This document shows positions 26,028-37,700 of a DNA stretch of 64,000 bases, one piece after another. The notes beneath the pieces are model-generated. The model worked only from the letters and a program-made list of their open reading frames with translations, did not search any database and was not told the DNA's origin. The position numbers were made by a program, and so were the translations under genes. This stretch comes from Achromobacter spanius (GTDB lineage Bacteria > Pseudomonadota > Gammaproteobacteria > Burkholderiales > Burkholderiaceae_B). Where the stretch lies: positions 3,038,001 to 3,102,000 of the forward strand of contig NZ_CP025030.1 in NCBI RefSeq assembly GCF_002812705.1, written 5' to 3'. Numbering within the stretch: the first letter of the stretch is position 1; every line of letters begins with the position of its first letter.

Positions 26028-26104
26028 CGGGGCGTAGCGCAGCCTGGTAGCGCATCTGCTTTGGGAGCAGAGGGTCGTGAGTTCGAATCCCACCGCCCCG
26101 ACCA
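26028..26104 (+). tRNA. tRNA-Pro, anticodon TGG
   Basis: A 77-nt cloverleaf with encoded CCA end. The acceptor stem CGGGGCG pairs with CGCCCCG, the D-arm holds AGCGCAGCCTGGTAGCGC, and the anticodon stem TCTGC/GCAGA encloses loop TTTGGGA, giving TGG, which reads CCN proline codons. The T-loop is GTTCGAATC. It has its own promoter and terminator. No integrase or duplicated 3' end is seen nearby, so it is not marking an island here. Confidence 0.97.
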
Positions 26105-26111
26105 AAAAATG

Positions 26112-26149
26112 AAAGGCCGTTAGTGAGCATTCTCACTAACGGCCTTTTT
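26112..26149 (+). terminator. Strong intrinsic terminator after tRNA-Pro
   Basis: A perfect 16-bp stem (26112-26127 with 26132-26147) and CATT loop ends in TTTTT. The A-rich left flank makes it usable for the opposite-strand Bug gene ending at 26169 as well. Confidence 0.93.
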
Positions 26150-26168
26150 CATTTCAGAAAGCCTTTAC

Positions 26169-27155
26169 TCAGTTAGCCGTGATCTTCGCGGTCTTGACTA
26201 CCTTGCCCCAGCGGTCCAGTTCCGACTGCGTATACGCGCCCAGTTCCTTCGGCCCCATGAAGATGGCTTCCGCTCCTTGCTCGGCGGCCTTTTGGCGGAA
26301 GGCGTCGGTCTTCATGATTTTCTGGATTTCACCGGCGATCTTGTCCACGACCGGGGCGGGCGTGTCCTTGGGGGCGTACATGGCGAACCACGATGACACG
26401 ATCAGGTCGGGATAGCCGGCCTCGGCGGCGGTGGGCACGTTCGGCAGGGACGGCAGGCGGGTGTTGCCGGTGACGGCCAGCGCGCGCAGCTTGCCGGCGG
26501 CGATCTGGCCCAGCAGCGGCGGGGGCGTGGTGATGGTCATGTCCACGGCGCCGCCCAGCAGGTCGTTCAGCGCGGGGCCGGTGCCCTTGTAGGGGATGTG
26601 CGTGATCTGCGTGCCGGCCATCTGGTTCAGCAGTTCGGTGGCCACCTGTTGCAGCGAGCCGTTGCCGGACGATGCGTAGTTCAGCTTGCCCGGGTTGGCC
26701 TTGGCGTAGGCCACCAGTTCCTTGAGCGAATTGATGGGCAGGTCCGGGCGCACCACCACGACTTGCGGCGCCGACAGCACGTTGGCGACGGGGGCGAAGT
26801 CCTTGATCGGGTCCCAGCCGGCGGTGGGCGTGACGTGGGGCGTGATGACCTGGAAGCCGGAGTATTGCAGCAGCAGCGTGTAGCCATCGGCCTTGGCGCG
26901 CGCCACCGTCTGCGCGGCGATACCGCCCGAGGCGCCCGGCTTGTTCTCGACGACGACGCTCTGGCCCAGCGCCGCGCCCAGAGGCTGGGCGATCAGGCGG
27001 GCCGCGATGTCGGTGGTGCCGCCCGGCGCGGCGGACACGATCAGCGTGACCGGACGATTGGGGAAGTCGGCTTGTGCGCTGGCGGCGCTGGCGCCGAGGG
27101 TCAGGGCGGCGGCGATACCGGCGCGCAGGATGGTGGGCAGGCAGGGCAATGCCAT
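26169..27155 (-). CDS. Tripartite tricarboxylate transporter receptor (Bug protein), module A
   Basis: A 328-residue periplasmic receptor of the Bug/TctC family, which captures carboxylates for a TctA-TctB membrane carrier. The signal peptide spans about residues 1-28 (ASAASAQA). Family marks are FPNRPVTLIVSAAPGG, VVENKPGASGGIA, the YASSGNGS loop and IPYKGTGPALNDLLGG. AAGGAGA lies before the ATG. It is the last gene of a minus-strand module with a CoA transferase and an HMG-CoA-lyase-type enzyme, which suggests a dicarboxylate-type ligand. No tctAB genes are in the window. Confidence 0.92.
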   Translation of the reverse strand: MALPCLPTILRAGIAAALTLGASAASAQADFPNRPVTLIVSAAPGGTTDIAARLIAQPLGAALGQSVVVENKPGASGGIAAQTVARAKADGYTLLLQYSGFQVITPHVTPTAGWDPIKDFAPVANVLSAPQVVVVRPDLPINSLKELVAYAKANPGKLNYASSGNGSLQQVATELLNQMAGTQITHIPYKGTGPALNDLLGGAVDMTITTPPPLLGQIAAGKLRALAVTGNTRLPSLPNVPTAAEAGYPDLIVSSWFAMYAPKDTPAPVVDKIAGEIQKIMKTDAFRQKAAEQGAEAIFMGPKELGAYTQSELDRWGKVVKTAKITAN

Positions 27156-27242
27156 GGGATGTCTCCTTGGTTTTTTATAGGTGTGGTGTCAAAACAAGCG
27201 GATAAACGGCTGCACTACATCGGTACTGCACTACATCGGGTA

Positions 27243-28190
27243 CTACTCTGGAAATCTCTCGGCCAGCCAGGCGGGCGCGGCGTGGGTCGCCAGGCGGGGG
27301 CCTGCTTGTAGCAAGGCGTTGCTCAGATCGCGCTGCACCAGTGCGGGCAAGCCGCGCACGATGGCCAGCAAAGGCGTAAGCGACACGCCGGTATCCACGC
27401 CCATGCAGGCGAACATGTGCACCAGTTCTTCGGTGTTGACGTTGCCGCTGGCGCCGGGCGCGTACGGGCATCCGCCCAGGCCGCCGGCCGCCGCGTCAAA
27501 GCGGGTGATGCCGGTTTGCCAAGCGGCCATCGCATTTGCCAGCGCCATGCCGCGCGTATTGTGCAGGTGCACGGTCAGCGCCACGCCGGGCAGCCGTGCG
27601 GACGCCTGTTCACACAGGGCGGCCACTTGCGTCGGGTACGCCATGCCGGTGGTGTCGCACAGGGTGATGCCGGTGGCGCCGGCGTCCGCCAGCCGTGTGG
27701 CCAGGTCCAGCACCTGATCCACCGGCACGTCGCCATCAAACGGGCAACCGAAGGCGGTGGACAGGGACACATTGCACGGCGTGCCGCTGCGGCCCGCTGC
27801 GGCCAGCACCTGCGACAGTTCCGCATACGACTGCTCGCGCGTCATGCGCAGGTTGGCGCGGTTATGCGTCTCGCTGCACGACATGACCAGATTCATTTCG
27901 TCTGTGCCGGCTTCCAGCGCGCGTTCCAACCCGCGGATGTTGGGCACCAGCGCGGTATAGATCACGCCCGGACGGCGGCGGATGCGGCGCATCACGTCCG
28001 CCGCGTCGGCCAGCGCGGGGATGGCCTTGGGCGACGTGAAACTGGTGACTTCGATGCGCGCAAAGCCGCAGTCGGACAAGGCGTCCACGAAGGCGACCTT
28101 GTCGTCGGTGGCGACCAGGGTTTTTTCTATCTGCAGGCCGTCCCGGGGGCCGACTTCGTTGATCTCGATCTTGGTGGGGCCGGCGTTCAT
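27243..28190 (-). CDS. HMG-CoA lyase family enzyme, module A
   Basis: A 315-residue TIM-barrel lyase of the hydroxymethylglutaryl-CoA lyase family, which cleaves 3-hydroxy-3-methylacyl-CoA substrates to acetyl-CoA or a similar CoA ester and a keto acid. The N-terminal EVGPRDGLQ carries the catalytic Arg-Asp, HLHNTRG the metal-binding His pair, and GGCPYAPGASGN the active-site Cys loop. The ATG at 28190 overlaps the upstream CoA transferase stop by four bases, which settles the start; longer in-frame readings are antisense-like. Its partner suggests the substrate is made by CoA transfer. True HMG-CoA, citramalyl-CoA or another 3-hydroxy-3-alkyl acyl-CoA are all possible. Confidence 0.9.
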   Translation of the reverse strand: MNAGPTKIEINEVGPRDGLQIEKTLVATDDKVAFVDALSDCGFARIEVTSFTSPKAIPALADAADVMRRIRRRPGVIYTALVPNIRGLERALEAGTDEMNLVMSCSETHNRANLRMTREQSYAELSQVLAAAGRSGTPCNVSLSTAFGCPFDGDVPVDQVLDLATRLADAGATGITLCDTTGMAYPTQVAALCEQASARLPGVALTVHLHNTRGMALANAMAAWQTGITRFDAAAGGLGGCPYAPGASGNVNTEELVHMFACMGVDTGVSLTPLLAIVRGLPALVQRDLSNALLQAGPRLATHAAPAWLAERFPE

Positions 28191-29380
28191 GCGATTACTC
28201 CCTTGGCGCGCAGCGCGTCGCGTTGTTCGTCCGACAAGCCCGCCTGCGCCAGCACGGCATCGGTGTGCTCGCCCAGCGTGGGCGCGCGTTCGCGGACCGC
28301 GCCGGGGTTGGCCGATAGATACGGAAAGACGGCCGGCATTTCCACTTGCACGCCGGCGGCGGATTCTACGGTGGTGATGGCATTGCGGGCGCGGTAGTGC
28401 GGGTCGGCGGCAATATCCGCCACCGAATAGATGCGGCCGGCCGGCACGTCGGCTTCGCGCATCGCGGCCAATACGTCGTCGATCAGCCGGGTTTGTGTCC
28501 AAGCGCCGATGGCGGCGTCGATCTCGGCCACGCGTCGAGCGCGGCCATCGTTGTGCGCCAAGGCCGGGTCCTGGCCCAGATCGTCGCGGCCGATGCGTGC
28601 CATCAGGCGGGTGTAGATGGCGTCGCCGTTGCCGGCGATGAGCACGTAGCCGTCCTGGCACGGATAGGCGTTGGACGGCGCGATGCCCGGCAGCGCGGCG
28701 CCGGCCGGCTCGCGCACGGCGCCGAACACGGAGTATTCCGGCAACAGGCTTTCGCTCAGGTTGAACAGGCTTTCGTAGAGCGCCGCGTCGATCACTTGGC
28801 CCACGCCGCCACGCGCATCGCGTTGGTACAGCGCCATCATCACGCCCAGCGCGCCATGCAGACCCGCGATGGTGTCGCCCAGCGACAAGCCCGCCCGCAC
28901 CGGCGCGCGGCCTGGTTCGCCGTTCAGGTAACGCAGCCCGGCCATGGCCTCGCCGATGGCCGCAAAGCCCGGCTCGCGCGCCTTGGGGCCGGTCTGGCCA
29001 TAGCCCGAGATGCGCAGCATGATCAGACGCGGGTTCAGTTCACGCAGGGCTTCCCACGACAAGCCCCATTTTTCCAGGGTGCCAGGGCGAAAGTTTTCGA
29101 TCAGCACGTCGGCCTGCTGGGCCAACAGGCGCACGATGTCCTGGCCTTCCTGCTGACGCAGGTCCACACACACCGACTGCTTGTTGCGCGACTGCGCTTC
29201 CCACCACACGGACGTGCCTTCGTGCAGCAAACGCCATTTGCGCAGCGGGTCGCCTTGCCCGGGGGGCTCGATCTTGATGACCTGCGCGCCAAAATCCGCC
29301 AGAGTCTTGGCGGCGAACGGCCCTGCTATCAGTTGACCCAGCTCCAGCACGCGGATGCCAGCAAGAATCTGCCCAGCCAT
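28187..29380 (-). CDS. CaiB/BaiF family (class III) CoA transferase, module A
   Basis: A 397-residue enzyme that moves CoA from a donor such as succinyl-CoA to a carboxylic acid. The N-terminal RVLELGQLIAGPFA and the IKIEPPGQGD Rossmann segment are typical, and the catalytic aspartate is Asp169 in LSLGDT, the same number as in formyl-CoA transferase. Overlap with the lyase gene by ATGA means tight coupling, consistent with activation followed by cleavage. The regulator gene lies 133 bases upstream on the same strand. Confidence 0.92.
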   Translation of the reverse strand: MAGQILAGIRVLELGQLIAGPFAAKTLADFGAQVIKIEPPGQGDPLRKWRLLHEGTSVWWEAQSRNKQSVCVDLRQQEGQDIVRLLAQQADVLIENFRPGTLEKWGLSWEALRELNPRLIMLRISGYGQTGPKAREPGFAAIGEAMAGLRYLNGEPGRAPVRAGLSLGDTIAGLHGALGVMMALYQRDARGGVGQVIDAALYESLFNLSESLLPEYSVFGAVREPAGAALPGIAPSNAYPCQDGYVLIAGNGDAIYTRLMARIGRDDLGQDPALAHNDGRARRVAEIDAAIGAWTQTRLIDDVLAAMREADVPAGRIYSVADIAADPHYRARNAITTVESAAGVQVEMPAVFPYLSANPGAVRERAPTLGEHTDAVLAQAGLSDEQRDALRAKGVIA

Positions 29381-29513
29381 TTCGCCTCCCTGGCGACACT
29401 CGATATTGATAGGCGGCAGTGTGCGCGCAAAGCGGCGCCGGGCGGAATGGACAATCGGGGAAAGGGGGGTTCCCAGAATGAGAAACCCCGGGCAAACCCG
29501 CAGCGGCTTCGCC

Positions 29514-30410
29514 TTAGTTATCGCCGCGCAGATGGGCCAGCAACAGGCGCGCGCCTACGGTCAGCGTGTCGGCATCGCGCACGCCCAGCAGCAGCCAGCG
29601 GCGCGCCCATTCGTCGGTCAGGGGAATGAGTTTGATCGGCATCGACCGCGCATGCGGCTCGGCCGCGATGCGCGGAAGGATGCCAACGCCACGGGTCGCC
29701 GCGACCATGCGGCAGATCGCGTCAAAGCTGCGCACCTGGATGCGCAAGCGCATGGCTCGGCCCAGACGACCGCTTTCGTCGGACAAACGGGTAGCCAGCG
29801 ACGTGGCCGGCGGCAGGCCCACGTAGTCGTAGGCCAAGGTGTCCGCAAACGCCACTTGCGCCTCAGAAGCCAAGGGGTGGCGCTGTGGCACGATCACCAC
29901 CAGTTCATCCAAGCGGTAGGGGAAGGTCGACAAGCCGTCGGCGGGCGTACGGTCGGCGAATACGCCGATATCGGCGCGGTTTTCAAGCACGGCGGTGACG
30001 ATGTCGCTGCTGTTCTGCTCTTCCAGGTCGATGCGCACGGCCGGGTGGCCATCCATGAAGGCGGCCAGGTCTTCGGGCAGGAACTGCGTCAGCGACGAGG
30101 TATTGGCGGCAATGCGCACCTGCCCGCGCACGCCTTGCGCGAAATCCGACAGCGCGCCCGTCATCTGCTCCACTTCCTGCAACACGCGCAGCGCGTGGAC
30201 CAGGCAGGCCTGGCCGGCATCGGTCAGTTCCACCCCGGCGGCGTTGCGGTACAGCAGCGCGGTGCCCAGGGCGGTTTCCAGGTCGGAGATCCGCTTGCTG
30301 GCCGCCCCCACCGCCAGATGCGATTGGCGCGCGCCGGCCGAGATGCTGCCCTGGCGCGCAACGGCAACAAACAGGGCGAGTGTGACGAGGTCGATACGGG
30401 CAAGGTTCAT
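29514..30410 (-). CDS. LysR-family regulator of module A
   Basis: A 298-residue LysR regulator with N-terminal winged HTH (SISAGARQSHLAVGAASKRISDLE region, about residues 20-43) and an effector domain. MNLARIDLVTL at 30410 is the standard start; the in-frame extension to 30503 lacks a domain. It is transcribed in the same direction as and ahead of the CoA transferase, lyase and Bug genes, so it probably controls them. It lies between modules A and B, and might also serve B, though B has a GntR regulator of its own. Confidence 0.88.
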   Translation of the reverse strand: MNLARIDLVTLALFVAVARQGSISAGARQSHLAVGAASKRISDLETALGTALLYRNAAGVELTDAGQACLVHALRVLQEVEQMTGALSDFAQGVRGQVRIAANTSSLTQFLPEDLAAFMDGHPAVRIDLEEQNSSDIVTAVLENRADIGVFADRTPADGLSTFPYRLDELVVIVPQRHPLASEAQVAFADTLAYDYVGLPPATSLATRLSDESGRLGRAMRLRIQVRSFDAICRMVAATRGVGILPRIAAEPHARSMPIKLIPLTDEWARRWLLLGVRDADTLTVGARLLLAHLRGDN

Positions 30411-30581
30411 GGAAAAATCCGGCGCGGGGTATGCCAAGGCGGGCGACGGGCCGAGTGCTATAGCCGAGGCGCCAGGGCAATAATTATGTCCGAATTCTTC
30501 CATTCTTCCTTGATGGGGTCGACGGCGCGATCAGGCCCACCCGGAGCGGTCGGGTGGCGCACATCGGTGGACCGCCTGCCG

Positions 30582-31688
30582 TCACAGCATCGCGACGCGC
30601 TTTCGCTCGATCAGATCGAAGTCGATCTTCGCCCCCAGTCCGGGGCCGGTCGGTGCATGGACGTAGCCCTCGGCGTCCGGCTCTATGTCCTCGATCAGAC
30701 CGTATTTCTGTGCCCCACCGGGCAATAGCACTTCGAAGAACTCGGTGTTCTTCAGCGCCATGGCCACGTGCAGTTGCGCCACGTTGTTCAACGAATTTCC
30801 TCCGTGGTGGATTTCGTAATTCATGCGGAACGCTTCGGCCAGATGCGCCGTCTTCAGCATGTTGGTAATGCCGCCCTTCAGCGGGACATCGCCGCGCAGG
30901 AAGTCGGTCGCGCTTTGCTGTATCCACGGCACATAGGCATCCAGGACGGCGGCCGGGGCCTCGGTTGCCATGATGGGGATGTGCAGTTGCTGCTTCAGCT
31001 TTACGTAGTTGTAGATGTCCGAATCCTGCAGCGGGTCCTCGTACCAGTAGTAATCCAATTCCTCTATCGCGCGTCCTACCCGCACGGCTTCGGGATACTG
31101 ATAAGCCCAGGCGGCGTCCAGCATCAGCAGGTAGTCGTCGCCTACGGCCTTGCGCACGCCTTCGCATACGCGGATGTCCTCTTTCCAGGGGTGGGGCGGG
31201 TGGATCTTGTAGGCGGCCCAGTTCAACGCCTGATAGTGACGCGCTTCGTCGGCGTATTCTTCGACCGAGTCCAGGATCATCGAGCTGGCGTAGGCTTTGA
31301 TCTTGTTGCGGTAGCCACCGATCAACTGGTGGATGGGCAGGCCGGCGACCTTGCCCGCGATGTCCCACAACGCGACGTCGCAGGCGCCGATGGTGCGCAC
31401 CGTGGTCGTCCGCGAACGCCGCCACATGGCCTGGAACAGGCGTTCCCGGTCCAGCGGGTCCTGGCCCATCAGTATGGGCTTGAGATACTTGATCAGGTTT
31501 GGGCCGTCCAGATCGGCGGGGTAATACGCCGATCCCAGGAAGGCGTGGCCCGTCACGCCCGCGTCGGTCTGGATGGACAGTAGCCCCAGCTTGCTGGAAC
31601 CGGCAAACTTGCCGGTGTGCGCGGCATAGCTGGTTGGCGGAATGTCGTCCCAGGCGAAAAGCGTAAGACTGACGTTGTCGATTTTCAT
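30582..31688 (-). CDS. Mandelate racemase-like enolase superfamily enzyme, module B
   Basis: A 368-residue enolase-superfamily protein acting on the alpha-proton of a carboxylate, as racemase or acid-sugar dehydratase. The catalytic residues align with mandelate racemase spacing: Lys161-x-His163, metal ligands Asp191, Glu217 and Glu243, and the Asp267/His294 dyad 27 residues apart. Mandelate racemase has Lys-x-Lys, so the second base is His here. It is last in the operon after a ThDP enzyme, giving a mandelate-pathway-like pair (racemase, then 2-keto acid decarboxylase after oxidation). A dehydratase for a sugar acid is the main alternative. Confidence 0.88.
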   Translation of the reverse strand: MKIDNVSLTLFAWDDIPPTSYAAHTGKFAGSSKLGLLSIQTDAGVTGHAFLGSAYYPADLDGPNLIKYLKPILMGQDPLDRERLFQAMWRRSRTTTVRTIGACDVALWDIAGKVAGLPIHQLIGGYRNKIKAYASSMILDSVEEYADEARHYQALNWAAYKIHPPHPWKEDIRVCEGVRKAVGDDYLLMLDAAWAYQYPEAVRVGRAIEELDYYWYEDPLQDSDIYNYVKLKQQLHIPIMATEAPAAVLDAYVPWIQQSATDFLRGDVPLKGGITNMLKTAHLAEAFRMNYEIHHGGNSLNNVAQLHVAMALKNTEFFEVLLPGGAQKYGLIEDIEPDAEGYVHAPTGPGLGAKIDFDLIERKRVAML

Positions 31689-31725
31689 GAAGGCTCCCGT
31701 TCATCGCGGCGTGCGGCCGCCTGGT

Positions 31726-33285
31726 TCAACACAGCAGTTCAATCAGGTAGGGCCCTTGCGCATGCAAGGCGCGCGATAAGGCGTCGGCGAGCCCTTCCAT
31801 GGTGTCGGTGCGTTCAGCGGGCACGCCCATGCCCTGGGCCAGTCGTACCCAGTCCAGCGCGGGGTCGTTCAAGCTGAACAGCGCGTTGGACGCGGGGCCC
31901 GGCACCGCGCCGACGGCGCGCAGTTCGCCTTGCAAAATGGCATAGGCCCGGTTCGCGAAGACGATGGTCACGACGTTCAGACGTTCGCGGGCTTGCGTCC
32001 ACAGGCCTTGCAGCGAATACATGCCGGCGCCATCGGCTTGCAGGCAAATCACGGGGCGGTCTGGGCACGCGATCGCCGCGCCGGTGGCGGTGGGAATGCC
32101 CCCGCCAATGGCGCCGCCGGTGTTCTGCAGCCAGTCATGTGCGGCGGCCTGGAAAGTCGGCGTGAACAGCCCGCGTCCGGATGTGACGGCGTCTTCCATC
32201 ACGATGCCGTCATGCGGCAGAAGGCGCGCCAGCACCTGGCCAAACGCCGCCGGCGTGAACGCACCGCTGGGCATGCCCGTTTCCGGCGCGGGCAATCCAA
32301 GATCGACCTGCCGTGGCGCCCGCAGTGCTTCGGCCAGTGCAATCAGCGCTGCCTCGGCATCTTCGTCGACACCGGCCAACGGGATCACCGTCGTCCCCTG
32401 GGCGCACAAGTCGCTGGGCTTGTCGGGATACGCAAAGAAAGCCGCGGGCGCCGGTGCCCCGGCCAGGATCAACGTGCGGACGGGCGCCAGCGTGGCCAGC
32501 GCCTGGTTCACGGCATACGGCAATCGGTCGATAGGCGGCCGCCCGTGTCCGCGCGGCATGCGTGCCACGAAAGTGGTGGTGCGCAGTGCCGCACCCGTGG
32601 CGCGGGCGATACGCCAGGCGGCCAGCTGGCCCGCTTCCGTCAGCCCGCCAGTACCCAGCAAGATCATGGCGGCGCCGTCGGCGCCCTGGGCACGCAAGGC
32701 GCGCGCAGCCTGGTCGATGTGCTGGCTGCCGGCCTGACGGCGGGCCGGCACCGGGTGGGGTTGTTGCGGGCCGTCGGACTCCGTCCAGGCTGTGTCGGCG
32801 GGCAGGATCAATGTGGCCACACCGCCTGGCGCCGTGCGGGCGGCCTGTACCGCCAGCGCGGCGTCATCGGCCACGCTACGGGCATGGCGCGACAGACGTA
32901 CCCATTGCGACATGGGCCGCGCCAGGCTTTCCACGTCGGACGTCAACGGCGTGTCGTAGGCGACGTGGTAGGTGGCGTGGTCGCCCACGATATTGACGAC
33001 GGGCGTGTAGGCACGCTTTGCGTTGTGCAGGTTTGCCAATCCATTGGCCAGCCCAGGGCCGCAATGCAGCAGAGTGGCGGCGGGGCGCCCCATCATGCGG
33101 CCATAACCGTCGGCGCAGCCCGTCACGACGGTCTCGGCCAAACCCAGCACGCAGCGCATGCCGGGGACTCGATCCAGCGCCGACACAAAGTGCATCTCCG
33201 ATGTTCCCGGATTCGCAAAACATGTGGTGACGCCTGCATTGACCAACGTGCGCACCAGCGCTTCGGCGCCGTTCATCGGCGTCAT
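31726..33285 (-). CDS. ThDP-dependent decarboxylase/acetolactate synthase-like enzyme, module B
   Basis: A 519-residue thiamine diphosphate enzyme. The catalytic Glu51 (GLAETVV) activates the cofactor, His74 (LLHCGPG) occupies the place of the active-site His70 of benzoylformate decarboxylase, and NPGTSE matches the NPGS-type loop with Ser/Thr. The ThDP-Mg motif begins QADGAGMYSLQ and ends near NRAYAI; its usual GDG is ADG. The family includes acetolactate synthase, benzoylformate decarboxylase and related enzymes; the short length and His74 favour a 2-keto acid decarboxylase. It overlaps the glutathione transferase stop by ATGA. Confidence 0.85.
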   Translation of the reverse strand: MTPMNGAEALVRTLVNAGVTTCFANPGTSEMHFVSALDRVPGMRCVLGLAETVVTGCADGYGRMMGRPAATLLHCGPGLANGLANLHNAKRAYTPVVNIVGDHATYHVAYDTPLTSDVESLARPMSQWVRLSRHARSVADDAALAVQAARTAPGGVATLILPADTAWTESDGPQQPHPVPARRQAGSQHIDQAARALRAQGADGAAMILLGTGGLTEAGQLAAWRIARATGAALRTTTFVARMPRGHGRPPIDRLPYAVNQALATLAPVRTLILAGAPAPAAFFAYPDKPSDLCAQGTTVIPLAGVDEDAEAALIALAEALRAPRQVDLGLPAPETGMPSGAFTPAAFGQVLARLLPHDGIVMEDAVTSGRGLFTPTFQAAAHDWLQNTGGAIGGGIPTATGAAIACPDRPVICLQADGAGMYSLQGLWTQARERLNVVTIVFANRAYAILQGELRAVGAVPGPASNALFSLNDPALDWVRLAQGMGVPAERTDTMEGLADALSRALHAQGPYLIELLC

Positions 33286-33914
33286 GGCGACTTCCCCGTG
33301 TCGGCATGCAAGCGCATGCCCGCGATGACGCCGGGACGCTGGCTCATACGGTCAGCCCAGGCCGCCAGCGCCGGGAATGCCGCCGGGTCAAGCAGGTTGC
33401 GGCGCAGCGCGTAGTTGGGATACAGGATGAAGTCCGCATAGCTGATGCTGTTGGCCAGGTAATCGCGCTTGGCCAGATGTTCCTCGACGATGCGGAAATA
33501 GCGGGCGAAGCGCTTCTGGAACAGGTCGATGTGTTCTTGCACTTTCAGCGGCGACACCACTTCCACCTGGTTCATCGAAGCGCTGGTGCCGCCTATATCG
33601 GTGCCCGCTTGCCAGGCCCATTGCATTGCTATGGCCCGGTCGGCGGCGTTGTCGGGAACAAAGCGGCCTGCTTTCTGGCAGGCGTACAGCACGATGGCGC
33701 CCGATTGGGCCAGTACCAGCGGCTGGCCGCCCGGCCCATCCGGATCGACCATGGCGGGGATCTGGCTGGCGGGATTTATCTTCAAGTAGTCGGGCGACTT
33801 TTGCGCGCCGGCGCCCACATCGATGGGGATGACGCGATGCGGCAATTCGCATTCGGCCAGGGCAATGGTGGCACGCAGGCCATTGGTGGTGCGCCAGGCG
33901 TAGAGATCTATCAT
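33282..33914 (-). CDS. Glutathione S-transferase family protein, module B
   Basis: A 210-residue protein of the nu-class/YfcG-Ure2p-like group. The N-terminal thioredoxin fold is MIDLYAWRTTNGLRATIALAE with Thr/Asn at the glutathione site (TTN, residues 9-11), then INPASQIPAMVD with the cis-Pro, and QSGAIVLYA. The C-terminal helical domain spans about residues 90-205. YfcG-type proteins act as disulfide-bond oxidoreductases or isomerases. It may isomerise or reduce a pathway intermediate or protect against a reactive aldehyde. It sits between the Bug receptor and ThDP genes. Confidence 0.88.
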   Translation of the reverse strand: MIDLYAWRTTNGLRATIALAECELPHRVIPIDVGAGAQKSPDYLKINPASQIPAMVDPDGPGGQPLVLAQSGAIVLYACQKAGRFVPDNAADRAIAMQWAWQAGTDIGGTSASMNQVEVVSPLKVQEHIDLFQKRFARYFRIVEEHLAKRDYLANSISYADFILYPNYALRRNLLDPAAFPALAAWADRMSQRPGVIAGMRLHADTGKSP

Positions 33915-33975
33915 CGAATCTGTCCTTTATGGCAGGGCAAGCGGGTGGCTGACGGGGGGCGGCCACCTGTCACCG

Positions 33976-34941
33976 TCATTGCACTTTGATGTCGGCGCGC
34001 TTGATCAGCGCTGCCCATTCACTGGCTTCCTTGTCCAGCCAGGTCTTGTATTCGGCGGACGACTGGTACACGGGTTCCACCATCATTTTTCTCAGTGTCT
34101 CTTTGGTGTCGGGCTGGTTCATGAAGTCCTGCACGGCCTGATTCAGCTTCTGAACGGTTTCGGGGGGCGTATTGACGGGCGCGAACAAGCCTTGGGATAT
34201 CAGCGCCGAAAATCCTGGTACTCCTGATTCGCTGATCGTGGGGATCTCGGGCGCATACGGGGAGCGCTTGTCGGTAGCGATCGCCAATGCACGCAGCTTT
34301 CCGGACCGCAGCAACTCCAACACGGATGGCAATCCCGTGAACACCATGTCGATGTGGCCACCCGCGGTGTCGGTAATCGCGGGGCCGCTGCCTTTGTACG
34401 GAACGTGCACGAGTTTGATCTTCGCTTGTTCCATGAGTCTTTCAGCCGCCAAGTGCGTAATGCCGCCCGTTCCAGACGACCCGATCGACAACTTGCCCGG
34501 GGACTTGCGCGCGGTTTCCAGCAGATCCTGGAACGTCTTGAAACGCGAGTTCGCGGGCACGACCAGCACGTTCCCGAACGTGGCCAGATTGGCCACGGGG
34601 ATCAAGTCCTTGCGGGAGTACGAAAGCGGTGTGTATAGCGAGGGAATGATGGAGTAGACAGCGGAATCCGACACCAGCAGCATCTTGTTGGGAGGGGTTG
34701 CCCTGACCACCGCCTCGGTGCCGATGATGCCGCCCGCGCCGGCGCGATTTTCAACGATCACGGTTTGGTTCATGGCCTTGCCCAGCCCTGGCGCGACCAG
34801 GCGGGCGAAGAGATCGGAGCCGCCTCCCGGGTTGTAAGGAACGATCAGTTGTATGGGTTGCCCCTCTTGCGCCAGAACGGACGATGGGGCGATAGACAGC
34901 CCGAGTGCGACGCAGGTCGCGCGTAACAGTATTTTGAACAT
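33976..34941 (-). CDS. Tripartite tricarboxylate transporter receptor (Bug protein), module B
   Basis: A 321-residue Bug/TctC receptor. Signal peptide about residues 1-24 (SSVLA then QEGQP). IQLIVPYNPGGGSD and VIVENRAGAGGIIG are the ligand-loop motifs, IGSSGTGGITHLAA and VPYKGSGPAITD follow. GGAGACAACC precedes the ATG. It presumably delivers the carboxylate that the neighbouring enzymes use. Membrane subunits are absent here. Confidence 0.92.
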   Translation of the reverse strand: MFKILLRATCVALGLSIAPSSVLAQEGQPIQLIVPYNPGGGSDLFARLVAPGLGKAMNQTVIVENRAGAGGIIGTEAVVRATPPNKMLLVSDSAVYSIIPSLYTPLSYSRKDLIPVANLATFGNVLVVPANSRFKTFQDLLETARKSPGKLSIGSSGTGGITHLAAERLMEQAKIKLVHVPYKGSGPAITDTAGGHIDMVFTGLPSVLELLRSGKLRALAIATDKRSPYAPEIPTISESGVPGFSALISQGLFAPVNTPPETVQKLNQAVQDFMNQPDTKETLRKMMVEPVYQSSAEYKTWLDKEASEWAALIKRADIKVQ

Positions 34942-35002
34942 TGGTTGTCTCCGTGTTCTTTGTTCTACTGCTTATAGGTACTGCTTACAGAAGGGGAACG
35001 GA

Positions 35003-35791
35003 TCAGAACGTGCCTGGATAGGCGCCGCCATCCAGCAGAATGTTCTGCCCGGTCAGGTAGCCGGCATCCATGCCGCATAAGAATGCGCAGACGGCACCAA
35101 ATTCTGCCGGCGTGCCGAATCGCTTCGCGGGAATCGCCTCGCGCCGATGATCGGTATAGGACTCGACCGACGCATTCGCGCGCCCGGCCATCGCGGTCAA
35201 ATTGCTGCGCAGGCGGTCTGTATCGAAGGTGCCGGGCAGCACGTTGTTCAGGGTGACATTTCGTCCAGCCAGCTTGGCTTGCCGCGCCAACCCCGCGATG
35301 AACCCGGTCAGGCCGGAGCGCGCGCCGTTCGATAGTCCCAATGCCGCGATCGGCGCTTTGACGGCCGACGACGTAATGTTGATGACCCGGCCGTAGCCGC
35401 GTTTGGCCATGCCGTCGACAGTGGCCTTGATCAACGCAATCGGCGCCAGCATGTTCGCGTCCAGTGCGCGGATCCAGTCGTCGCGCGTCCAATCCTGCAT
35501 ATCGCCCGCGGGCGGTCCGCCTGCGTTGTTGATCAGGATGTCGATGGCGGGAGCTTGCGCCAGCGCGGCTTCACGGCCCTGCTCGGTGGCGATATCGCCA
35601 ACGGCGGTACGGATGTCGACATTTGGCGCCAGCATGCGCAGTTCTCTAGCTGTGCTTTCCAGCGTGTCCGGGTGGCGGGCAGTGATCACAAGATTCACGC
35701 CTTCGGACGCCAACGCTTGCGCGCATCCGCGCCCCAGTCCTTTGCTGGCGCCGCACACCAGCGCCCATTTACCCGCAATCCGCAAGTCCAT
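35003..35791 (-). CDS. SDR family protein with degenerate catalytic site, module B
   Basis: A 262-residue SDR-fold protein. The cofactor motif GASKGLG (residues 14-20), NNAGG (88-92) and the catalytic Asn/Ser region (ITSSAV, 139-144) are present, but where YxxxK should stand the sequence is SNGAR (154-158): Tyr is Ser and Lys is Arg. A known SDR subgroup related to beta-ketoacyl reductases lacks the canonical tetrad, so this is not a broken gene: length and C-terminus (TGQNILLDGGAYPGTF) are intact. It is first in the module B operon and may bind a substrate with a different chemistry. Confidence 0.85.
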   Translation of the reverse strand: MDLRIAGKWALVCGASKGLGRGCAQALASEGVNLVITARHPDTLESTARELRMLAPNVDIRTAVGDIATEQGREAALAQAPAIDILINNAGGPPAGDMQDWTRDDWIRALDANMLAPIALIKATVDGMAKRGYGRVINITSSAVKAPIAALGLSNGARSGLTGFIAGLARQAKLAGRNVTLNNVLPGTFDTDRLRSNLTAMAGRANASVESYTDHRREAIPAKRFGTPAEFGAVCAFLCGMDAGYLTGQNILLDGGAYPGTF

Positions 35792-35840
35792 CTTGATTTG
35801 TCTCCGGTGGCAGTCGTGGCTGCAATTCGTCGTTTGCGCT

Positions 35841-35872
35841 AAATTACATCATTGTTAAGTTGTAAGGCAACT
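35841..35872 (-). promoter_or_regulatory. Candidate promoter and operator of module B
   Basis: On the minus strand TTGCCT (35870-35865) and TAATTT (35846-35841) are 18 bases apart and face the SDR-Bug-GST-ThDP-enolase operon. The palindrome AGTTG-TAAGG-CAACT (35858-35872) covers the -35. It is the best candidate site for the divergent GntR/FCD repressor. Confidence 0.45.
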
Positions 35873-35982
35873 ATTTTGAAGGGTGTCCATTCAGGCCAAA
35901 TGCAGGGCACAGCTATACTGGCCGCCAATCAGTGCGTCGCCCAGCTCTGGCACCACGCGGCCATCTGATCCCCGGAACTTCT

Positions 35983-36768
35983 ATGTCCAGACCTAAGACA
36001 GACAATCGGGCTCAGGCCCCGGAAAGTGAATCTTCCGAAGCGCAAGACTTGCGCGCCCAGCGTCCGCCCCGACTGGCCGACCAACTCTACGATCGGTTGC
36101 TACAGCAGATCACCTACGGAAAATATCCGGAAGAAAGCCGGCTGCCTTCCGAGATGGATTTGTGCGCGACTTTCGGCGTCTCCCGCCCCGTGGTGCGCGA
36201 AGCGCTATTCAGGTTGCAGGCAGACGGCGTCATTATTTCCCAGCGCGGCGCCGGGTCGTATGTGCGTCGGCGGCCCAGCCCTGAACTGGTGAAACTGGCG
36301 CCGATCGGCGGGCTGGCAGAGCTGGTGCGCTGCATGGAATTGCGCAGTGCGCTAGAAGGTGACGCTGCCTGCATGGCGGCGACGCGTCGCAGCGAAGGTG
36401 ATCTGCAAGCCATGGCAACTGCGCTGGAAGACATGCGCGTCGCTTTCGATGCTCGCCAGGTGGGCAACGAAGCTGACTTCCGGTTCCACCAAGCGATTGC
36501 GAACGCCTGTGGAAATGACCTGTTCGTGACGATGCTGCAATCGCTATCCAAGCAGATATTCGATTACATGCGTGTGATGCGCAGCCTGGCGTTATCCAGC
36601 GCGGTCACTCGCGGCCAACAAGTGCAGCGAGAGCACGAGCGCATTTTTCAAGCCATCAGCAAGCAGCAGCCCGAAGAGGCGCGTGACGCGATGCGCGAGC
36701 ATATCTACAACTCCAGAATGCGGACGCTGGACGCAAGCTTTTCGCCCACGGTCGCGCGCAAGCGTTAA
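35983..36768 (+). CDS. GntR-family regulator, FadR/FCD subfamily
   Basis: A 261-residue regulator. After a variable N-terminal tail, a winged HTH (about residues 32-95, with LPSEMDLCATFGVSRPVVREAL) binds DNA, and the all-helical FCD domain (about 115-240) binds a carboxylate effector. Its metal-site residues are visible in EADFRFHQAIANACGN and REHERIFQAI. The ATG at 35983 follows GGAAC and fits; the in-frame start at 35932 has no support. It diverges from the module B operon across 191 bases, the standard arrangement for a repressor released by the pathway substrate. Confidence 0.9.
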   Translation: MSRPKTDNRAQAPESESSEAQDLRAQRPPRLADQLYDRLLQQITYGKYPEESRLPSEMDLCATFGVSRPVVREALFRLQADGVIISQRGAGSYVRRRPSPELVKLAPIGGLAELVRCMELRSALEGDAACMAATRRSEGDLQAMATALEDMRVAFDARQVGNEADFRFHQAIANACGNDLFVTMLQSLSKQIFDYMRVMRSLALSSAVTRGQQVQREHERIFQAISKQQPEEARDAMREHIYNSRMRTLDASFSPTVARKR

Positions 36769-36815
36769 GGGCACGTCCTTGGCCGGCGGTTCGCCGACGC
36801 GCCCGTCGACATGGG

Positions 36816-37037
36816 CTACTCGCTGATATGGGCGAACTGAACTGAATCAGGTGCGATACCCCCCTGGTGCAGACGCGCGTCCACGTCCTCTTGCCCACCA
36901 TCGGGAACGCCTGCTTCAGGCAACTCCAGCCAGTTCGCCAGTTCGCGCTTTGCCTGGCTCGTTTCCGAAATACCGCCATTGACCAAGGCGACACCGTCGC
37001 CGCCGTCAAGTTTGCGATAGCTGATCTGCGTTTTCAT
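36816..37037 (-). CDS. Uncharacterised 73-residue protein
   Basis: A small acidic protein starting MKTQISYRKLDGGDGVALVNG. It has a good AGGAG ribosome-binding site just before the ATG and follows the DUF305 gene by 20 bases in the same direction, so it is probably a real, cotranscribed gene. No signal peptide, membrane segment, Cys or known motif is seen. I do not recognise the family. Confidence 0.6.
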   Translation of the reverse strand: MKTQISYRKLDGGDGVALVNGGISETSQAKRELANWLELPEAGVPDGGQEDVDARLHQGGIAPDSVQFAHISE

Positions 37038-37057
37038 TTTCTCTCCTGGTGCATGGG

Positions 37058-37603
37058 TTATTCCGGCTTGGGCGCCGGCAGGCCTAGTTCTCGGTAGTCG
37101 CGAAGTTCCGGGCTGCCTTCGGGCGGCGGGTTCTTTTCCAGGTCGGCGATAAGCTGTTCCATTTCGCCTATTTCCTTGACCTGTGCCCGGATGATTCCAT
37201 CCGCCAGTTTGCGAACGCGCGGGTCGCGGATGCGCGCGCGTTCACTGGTCAGAATCGCAATGGAGTGGTGGGGGATCATGGCCCGCATGTACGAAATATC
37301 GTCCACCGTGGCTTGGCTGCGCACCAGCCACAATGCGGCGGCGAAGGCGGCAACGCTGCCGATGACGATGCCCAGGTTGATGCGCCGGTTGCGATACATT
37401 GACAGCATGAACCCCAGCATGACCACCGCCATGACGGCGCCCATGATCACCGCCATCCACAGCCGCGTTTGGCTGAAATAGATATGCGACAGGGCATAGA
37501 CGTTCAAGTACATCAAGCCGTACATGATGGTCGTCGCTACGACGATCATCAGTGCGAAGCGGGCGTAACCCCTCTTTTGAGTGTTGTTTGACGATTTGTC
37601 CAT
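37058..37603 (-). CDS. DUF305 family membrane protein
   Basis: A 181-residue protein with three or four N-terminal membrane helices (about residues 15-105) followed by a soluble DUF305 region with the signature MIPHHS (His-His) and a helical MEQL segment. DUF305 has a ferritin-like helical fold and is often found with copper or stress genes; its role is not established. The ATG at 37603 has GGGAG seven bases upstream and the upstream in-frame ATG does not. It lies in a four-gene minus-strand run with DUF2269 and the epimerase-DoxX gene. Confidence 0.82.
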   Translation of the reverse strand: MDKSSNNTQKRGYARFALMIVVATTIMYGLMYLNVYALSHIYFSQTRLWMAVIMGAVMAVVMLGFMLSMYRNRRINLGIVIGSVAAFAAALWLVRSQATVDDISYMRAMIPHHSIAILTSERARIRDPRVRKLADGIIRAQVKEIGEMEQLIADLEKNPPPEGSPELRDYRELGLPAPKPE

Positions 37604-37700
37604 GGGCCGACTCCCGCGGGTATACACATGCCCGCCGCGCAGCAAGTTCTGTTCCAAGAGGAATTGAGCGCTTGGAATCCAGGCGGTCCGGAATTGCCCT

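Follow-up and report, generated by a model that had tools for sequence, protein, structure and literature searches.

Related systems

The mandelate pathway (mandelate racemase, (S)-mandelate dehydrogenase and benzoylformate decarboxylase, BFDC) and the non-phosphorylative sugar-acid pathways (galactonate, arabinonate, fuconate and rhamnonate dehydratases) are the described systems closest to the gene cluster analysed here, which lies in a 64,000-base stretch of the Achromobacter spanius genome (the window, positions 3038001-3102000 of genome G000; coordinates are window positions unless a genome or another locus is named). The cluster, called the cassette below, encodes an MR/MLE-type enolase, a thiamine diphosphate (ThDP)-dependent enzyme, a glutathione S-transferase (GST), a Bug solute receptor and an SDR-fold protein, with a divergent GntR/FCD regulator. 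With the mandelate pathway it has in common that a single operon encodes a mandelate racemase-subgroup enolase together with a BFDC-like ThDP enzyme; it differs in having no mandelate-type dehydrogenase, a His rather than a Lys as the strand-2 base, the extra GST, Bug and SDR genes, and a ThDP gene that is optional. With the sugar-acid pathways it shares the enolase fold, the metal ligands and a His-Asp dyad like that of E. coli DgoD, but its enolase falls below the curated dehydratase models, there is no aldolase or kinase, and partners such as the ThDP enzyme and the GST are unusual for such pathways.

The SAR202 bacteria belong to the class Dehalococcoidia. Their MR-type enolases are presented in excerpts of one paper as racemases, with beta-elimination as an alternative (PMC6946804), and in excerpts of a later account those of cultivated SAR202 are argued to serve sugar-acid dehydration (PMC10444878). 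The cassette enolase is of the same MR-type subgroup and has family members in Chloroflexi/Dehalococcoidia records, whose titles do not say SAR202; nine Chloroflexi/Dehalococcoidia loci gave no GST or ThDP match by tblastn. In Proteobacteria, MR/MLE genes are also described, again in excerpt, near tripartite tricarboxylate transporter (TTT) genes at arylmalonate-decarboxylase loci (PMC4996985). The cassette shares with these an MR/MLE gene and a nearby TTT (Bug-type) gene; it has no arylmalonate decarboxylase, and the excerpted text mentions neither GST nor ThDP genes.

No description of this gene set was found in the literature searched (open-licence papers). It is, in our view, a genuine catabolic operon: mobile, still uncharacterised, and familiar in kind. 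Our best explanation, held tentatively, is that it is a horizontally moving, GntR/FCD-controlled catabolic cassette for a polar carboxylic acid, most likely a 2,3-dihydroxy (sugar-acid-like) one that would be dehydrated by the enolase, with ThDP-dependent decarboxylation as an extension. Compact, movable and probably inducible, and bringing along a receptor and a regulator, the operon offers a practical route to the substrate of the enolase family, and a cultivable host together with a binding protein would make the racemase-versus-dehydratase question raised for SAR202 testable for this enolase branch.

Gene content and mobility

Residue and domain calls were made with Pfam, NCBIfam cut-offs, PDB-chain matches and alignments. 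The families and strands of the six genes had been proposed in an earlier reading of the letters without database searches (the sequence-only reading), and the open reading frame (ORF) and Pfam/NCBIfam calls bear that assignment out. On the minus strand the transcription order is SDR, Bug, GST, ThDP enzyme, enolase, with gaps of 61, 61, -4 and 37 bases; 140 bases separate the GntR and SDR genes. The operon holds no gene for a membrane TctA/TctB component. A simple scan of 29400-37100 found no intrinsic-terminator-like site in the gaps among the five operon genes; its sole minus-strand hit lies inside the GST gene. The five genes are presumably cotranscribed as one operon-like unit.

Genome G168, from the same genus-level group, matches 26060-30497 and 36813-37619 at 95%, with about 130 bases between. 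Since the flanks match in this way, the segment 30498-36812, which contains the six genes and no further called gene, was either gained here or lost in G168. Gain in the A. spanius genome is likelier, because the enolase is found in 32 of 250 family genomes and in only 2 of the same-genus genomes listed (A. spanius itself and G228, with 20 lacking it). The block has the same GC fraction as its surroundings (0.632, window 0.640), and no shared repeat longer than 8 bases occurs within about 110 bases of either end, so that no trace of the mode of transfer is left. The six neighbouring genes seem to have been acquired together as one horizontally moving unit.

Core and optional genes

The six proteins and three neighbours were compared by tblastn with 100 loci, nine of which are duplicates; from the 191 loci of the enolase genome scan the best 80 were kept, at 61-94% identity. 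All six genes stand in the same complete order in G228 and Bordetella genomosp. 5. With the absence of the set as one block from G168 and the GST distribution given below, this makes the set more than a chance neighbourhood. Five of the eight cassette loci have a short form, GntR-Bug-GST-enolase, with no SDR or ThDP gene in the cluster (Bordetella genomosp. 4, Achromobacter sp. HZ34, A. aloeverae, Bordetella sp. LUAb4 and G100). The SDR gene is therefore in the cassette at three loci only, those with the complete order. All eight have the GntR orthologue in divergent orientation, and the operon-strand genes common to all eight are Bug, GST and enolase. A neighbourhood comparison had been proposed to see whether the set travels together: the GntR-Bug-GST-enolase part does so at all eight cassette loci, and the ThDP enzyme and SDR at three.

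GST is the enzyme most constantly found with the enolase in the Bordetella/Achromobacter loci. Its orthologue (E <= 1e-60) is present in eight of 268 family genomes, always in the enolase cluster, adjoining the enolase gene in five loci and one gene away in three; at the same threshold it is unmatched in 24 of the 32 family genomes that have the enolase. Three of 250 genomes encode the ThDP enzyme at 78% identity or more, always inside the operon. Its relatives at about 46-58% identity are common, with matches at E <= 1e-100 in 128 of the 250 genomes, A. spanius included. ThDP enzyme and SDR are optional parts of the cassette.

Protein clusters that share a longest-contig size suggest further sets, which are inferred from those sizes and not from reading the contigs: ThDP with GST in Bordetella sputigena (334764-base contig), in Orrella sp. 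JC864 (117891) and on a 6954-base contig; ThDP with GST and enolase on a 14855-base contig; and GST with enolase on a 2925-base contig.

Regulator and conserved block

The intergenic region that separates GntR from the operon has diverged apart from a block of about 33 bases, kept in all eight loci. Seven loci were scored, with no mismatch in five, one in one and three in one; the next-best matches have at least 14 mismatches. The block holds AGTTG-n5-CAACT and has no match to the sigma-70 consensus, and it is probably the GntR operator. Three loci have the SDR gene right behind it and five have Bug; the control element is therefore independent of the optional genes.

Table 1. Features of the cassette in the window
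Feature	Position	Strand	Remarks
MR/MLE-type enolase (ENO)	30582..31688	-	368 aa; Pfam MR_MLE_N + MR_MLE_C; residues by alignment
ThDP-dependent enzyme, BFDC-like	31726..33285	-	519 aa; Pfam TPP_enzyme_N + _C; NCBIfam PRK07586; PDB matches
YfcG-like GST	33282..33914	-	210 aa; T9 + N11
Bug (TctC-type) periplasmic solute receptor	33976..34941	-	321 aa; Pfam TctC 237 bits
SDR-fold protein	35003..35791	-	262 aa; S154/R158 replace catalytic Tyr/Lys
33-base conserved block, probable GntR operator	35840..35872	-	between GntR gene and first operon gene
GntR/FCD regulator, divergent	35932..36768	+	Pfam GntR + FCD; other possible start 35983
Mobile block	30498..36812		missing from same-genus genome G168, ~130 bases there instead

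Enolase

The enolase was aligned as 23 orthologue rows together with E. coli DgoD, RhmD and GudD. It carries the metal ligands D191/E217/E243, the motif K161-I-H163, the dyad D267-H294, and E319; D191, E217, E243, D267, H294, E319 and a Y-K-[IL]-H-P motif are kept in all 23 rows. Its MR_MLE domains score over the cut-offs and its ligands and His-Asp dyad align with those of DgoD, which places it in the mandelate racemase subgroup. Mandelate racemase ends strand 2 with K-x-K, whose second Lys serves as a base; H163 stands at that place. The cassette enolase reads K-x-H and so departs from the motif of mandelate racemase proper, mandelate racemase itself lying outside the residue-level alignment. 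Excerpts on mandelate racemase assign one face to a His and the other to a Lys (PMC5467563).

Among solved chains the best matches are 1rvk (201 bits) and 4jhm (148), whose deposited names state no function, followed by 5olc, a galactonate dehydratase (131); mandelate racemase reaches at most 86. Both 1rvk and 4jhm read K-L-H, with Gly at the D267 place in 1rvk and Gln at the H294 place in 4jhm, and 5olc reads K-M-K, so that none of the three combines K-x-H with a complete dyad. The top three curated models are all far under their cut-offs, namely the arabinonate (138 bits, cut-off 650), talarate/galactarate (133, 500) and mannonate (119, 550) dehydratases, followed by galactonate (102, 311) and rhamnonate (94, 393) dehydratases. 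The sequence-only reading had left open whether the substrate is racemised or dehydrated. Dehydration is now the likelier option, and the likeness to mandelate racemase is weakened by K-x-H and by 86 bits at best against 131 and 201. A sugar-acid dehydratase, which that reading had named, jointly with an acetolactate synthase, as a result that would speak against it, is accordingly the reading we favour.

The wider family extends far beyond the orthologues (5869 proteins at E <= 1e-3 of 8000 candidates scored) and includes members in nine Chloroflexi/Dehalococcoidia metagenome-assembled genome (MAG) records, at 61-65% identity. Each of these nine contigs (L110, L119, L122, L127, L129, L130, L132, L133 and L137) has one or two more enolase-like genes nearby.

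Gene neighbours were counted within seven called genes at 74 of 91 loci, those in which the enolase was called (17 left out). Nine of the 100 loci had been dropped as duplicates of named ones, and a first gene caller, which called the enolase in 60 of the 91, was replaced. Names of most neighbour clusters come from one representative each, some of them through BLAST to the window proteins only. Among the 74, a Bug-like cluster is present at 26 loci, a carboxylesterase directly upstream at 15, Amidohydro_2 at eight and a D-2-hydroxyacid dehydrogenase at seven (Pfam on one member). One kind of second enolase is found at 11 loci (nearest chain of its representative 3bjs, 742 bits) and another kind at 10. 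These varied settings point to carboxylates and to no single substrate. Several of the seven dehydrogenase loci (L046, L056, L064, L065, L067, L074 and L075) also have the 3bjs-like second enolase and a Bug gene. Reyranella-like loci (L084, L097 and others) often run from carboxylesterase to enolase and in some to Amidohydro_2, where an ester- or lactone-opening step before the enolase is possible. DUF188, RNase T and M48 peptidase genes near the enolase were taken as unrelated residents.

ThDP enzyme, GST and SDR

The best PDB matches of the ThDP enzyme are benzoylformate decarboxylases. It also passes NCBIfam PRK07586, 'acetolactate synthase large subunit', with 730 bits against a cut-off of 363, and its central region has no Pfam match to TPP_enzyme_M. 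E51 and H74 are present; in BFDC numbering (S26, H70 and H281), H74 is the H70 equivalent, T28 stands at the place of S26 and Y286 at that of H281. The full BFDC residue set (Ser26, His70, His281 and the activating Glu) is therefore incomplete. Loci of wider relatives were fetched for 12 of 18 other genomes matching at 59-63% identity. They have no constant partner gene and were set aside as a substrate clue; in two of them the ThDP gene adjoins a D-2-hydroxyacid dehydrogenase gene or sits one called ORF away (Pfam on one). A paralogue in the A. spanius genome itself (L180 8909-10468; G000 2966908-2968461; 54% identical) lies downstream of ABC-transporter-like and arginase-family genes, and visual inspection around its relatives in three other genomes showed no arginase-family gene.

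The GST has GST domains with T9 and N11, the residues of the YfcG type. Against the YfcG model it scores 112 bits, with a cut-off of 332, so it is of the YfcG type and not YfcG itself.

The classical SDR signature is a glycine-rich Rossmann motif with Asn-Ser-Tyr-Lys. The cassette SDR keeps the Rossmann motif (GASKGLG), the Asn and S141, and has S154 and R158 in place of the Tyr-x-x-x-Lys pair, which agrees with the earlier remark that its catalytic site is not intact; it is not a classical SDR. The chains 5vps and 1o5i align with the same Tyr/Lys replacement. No SDR with a Ser/Arg site was recognisable in the literature searched; a possible case is YwfH/BacG. Paralogues at 52-62% identity are present in all 11 genomes tested. 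Of 17 places listed, two are the cassette gene, and seven of the other 15 were fetched. Two of the seven have an IlvD/EDD sugar-acid-type dehydratase gene within about 4 kb, including L279 2663-6022, where an SDR relative and an FCD regulator accompany an IlvD/EDD gene that exceeds the L-arabinonate dehydratase cut-off (1098 bits, 882). One other locus has an adjoining DHDPS-family gene, at a further one Bug and FCD genes accompany another ThDP enzyme, and three have none of these.

Proposed chemistry and alternatives

Dehydration by an enolase-superfamily dehydratase yields a 2-oxo-3-deoxy acid. The Bug protein would bind the acid outside the cell, and the enolase (D191/E217/E243; H163, H294-D267) would take the alpha proton and eliminate the beta hydroxyl to give such a 2-oxo-3-deoxy acid. 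Because this dehydration gives the 2-oxo acid directly, no separate oxidation step would be needed. In the extended version an aldehyde would form as the ThDP enzyme decarboxylates the 2-oxo acid; the SDR, binding NAD(P), may use its unusual Ser/Arg site on the product, and the GST may handle or isomerise an electrophilic intermediate. Gene content and order, the one-block absence from G168, the operator-like block and the conserved catalytic residues are observed directly; that the acid is dehydrated and not racemised, that decarboxylation follows, in which order the steps run and to which class the substrate belongs are what we infer.

In favour of this explanation are the close spacing and recurring order of the genes, the empty site in G168 and the conserved 33-base block; the enolase residues kept in all 23 rows, the dehydratases that head its curated-model scores and the lead of 5olc over mandelate racemase; the IlvD/EDD genes near two of the seven SDR-paralogue loci; the benzoylformate decarboxylases among solved ThDP relatives and the D-2-hydroxyacid dehydrogenase genes near two of the 12 ThDP relatives; and the sugar-acid role argued for enolases of cultivated SAR202 (PMC10444878).

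Several observations weigh against this explanation. The cassette has none of the kinase, aldolase and semialdehyde dehydrogenase genes typical of sugar-acid pathways, and the simple scan of 29400-37100 gave no sigma-70-like promoter match. The enolase reaches no curated NCBIfam cut-off, and mandelate racemase had no model among those listed, which makes the leaning toward dehydratases weak evidence. Bases on both faces (H163, H294) also fit the needs of a racemase, and the D-2-hydroxyacid dehydrogenase neighbours suit racemisation followed by oxidation at least as well. Since the ThDP gene is optional, decarboxylation is no fixed part of the chemistry. At five of the seven SDR-paralogue loci no IlvD/EDD gene was found, and the explanation does not account for the GST.

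The strongest rival, which we nevertheless consider unlikely, follows mandelate: a 2-hydroxy acid would be racemised by the enolase and oxidised to the 2-oxo acid by an oxidase or dehydrogenase from another locus, and the ThDP enzyme would decarboxylate that 2-oxo acid. The pair of bases H163 and H294-D267, the H70 equivalent in the BFDC-like enzyme, D-2-hydroxyacid dehydrogenase genes near seven of 74 enolase loci and two of 12 ThDP relatives, and the first proposal, in excerpt, of SAR202 enolases as racemases (PMC6946804) are consistent with it. It is opposed by K-x-H instead of K-x-K, by bit scores that favour galactonate dehydratase over mandelate racemase, by a cassette in which no dehydrogenase has a normal catalytic site, and by the ThDP gene missing from five of eight loci. 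Import and breakdown of a hydroxy acid, as first proposed, remain reasonable given the Bug, enolase and BFDC-like genes; mandelate logic as the core of the system is not supported, with ThDP and SDR genes missing from those five loci.

It is improbable, in our judgement, that the core is thiol chemistry, in which an unsaturated or halogenated acid would gain or lose glutathione through the GST and undergo elimination or epimerisation alpha to the carboxylate by the enolase, with ThDP enzyme and SDR as later additions. The restriction of the GST to eight of 268 genomes, in each case in the enolase cluster, its T9 and N11, and the constancy of Bug, GST and enolase on the operon strand all argue for it. 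However, 24 of 32 enolase-bearing family genomes are without the GST, so the enolase reaction has no general need of it, and we know of no enolase-superfamily enzyme acting on glutathione conjugates.

Least probable is that the ThDP enzyme is an acetolactate-synthase-type carboligase joining the enolase-made 2-oxo acid to a second molecule. The PRK07586 score (a model name that is annotation only) and the replacement of BFDC S26 and H281 by T28 and Y286 speak for it; the missing TPP_enzyme_M match, decarboxylases as the best solved relatives, and an operon with no regulatory subunit gene speak against it. Acetolactate synthase had been the other half of the result named as speaking against the sequence-only reading, and on this half the evidence points both ways.

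Beyond the favoured dehydration route, a bolder idea, which we rate as a long shot, is that enolases with K-x-H and a full dyad form a new reaction family of the mandelate racemase subgroup (Alpha- and Betaproteobacteria, Dehalococcoidia), that in the Bordetella/Achromobacter cassette enolase and GST would convert a hydroxy or unsaturated acid in two glutathione-dependent steps used by no described pathway, and that ThDP enzyme and SDR would extend it to an aldehyde and a further product.

Neighbouring genes

Gluconate-2-dehydrogenase-like genes (GMC oxidoreductase, cytochrome c and subunit 3; Pfam on one) lie beside the cassette in four loci. As a sugar-acid clue they were rejected: a GMC relative is present in all 10 genomes tested, and the genes are most likely a resident neighbour. 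Such relatives occur elsewhere in the cassette-bearing genomes G228, G163 and G103, and also in G005 and G047, which belong to the same genus-level group as the four loci and are not among the 32 enolase genomes.

On the minus strand at 26169-30503 are a LysR gene, a CoA-transferase family III gene, a lyase-like gene (frame within 27243-28661; no domain scan) and a second Bug gene. This set was rejected as part of the system, being present in G168 without the cassette; in Bordetella genomosp. 5 the enolase does not have the LysR and CoA-transferase genes as neighbours.

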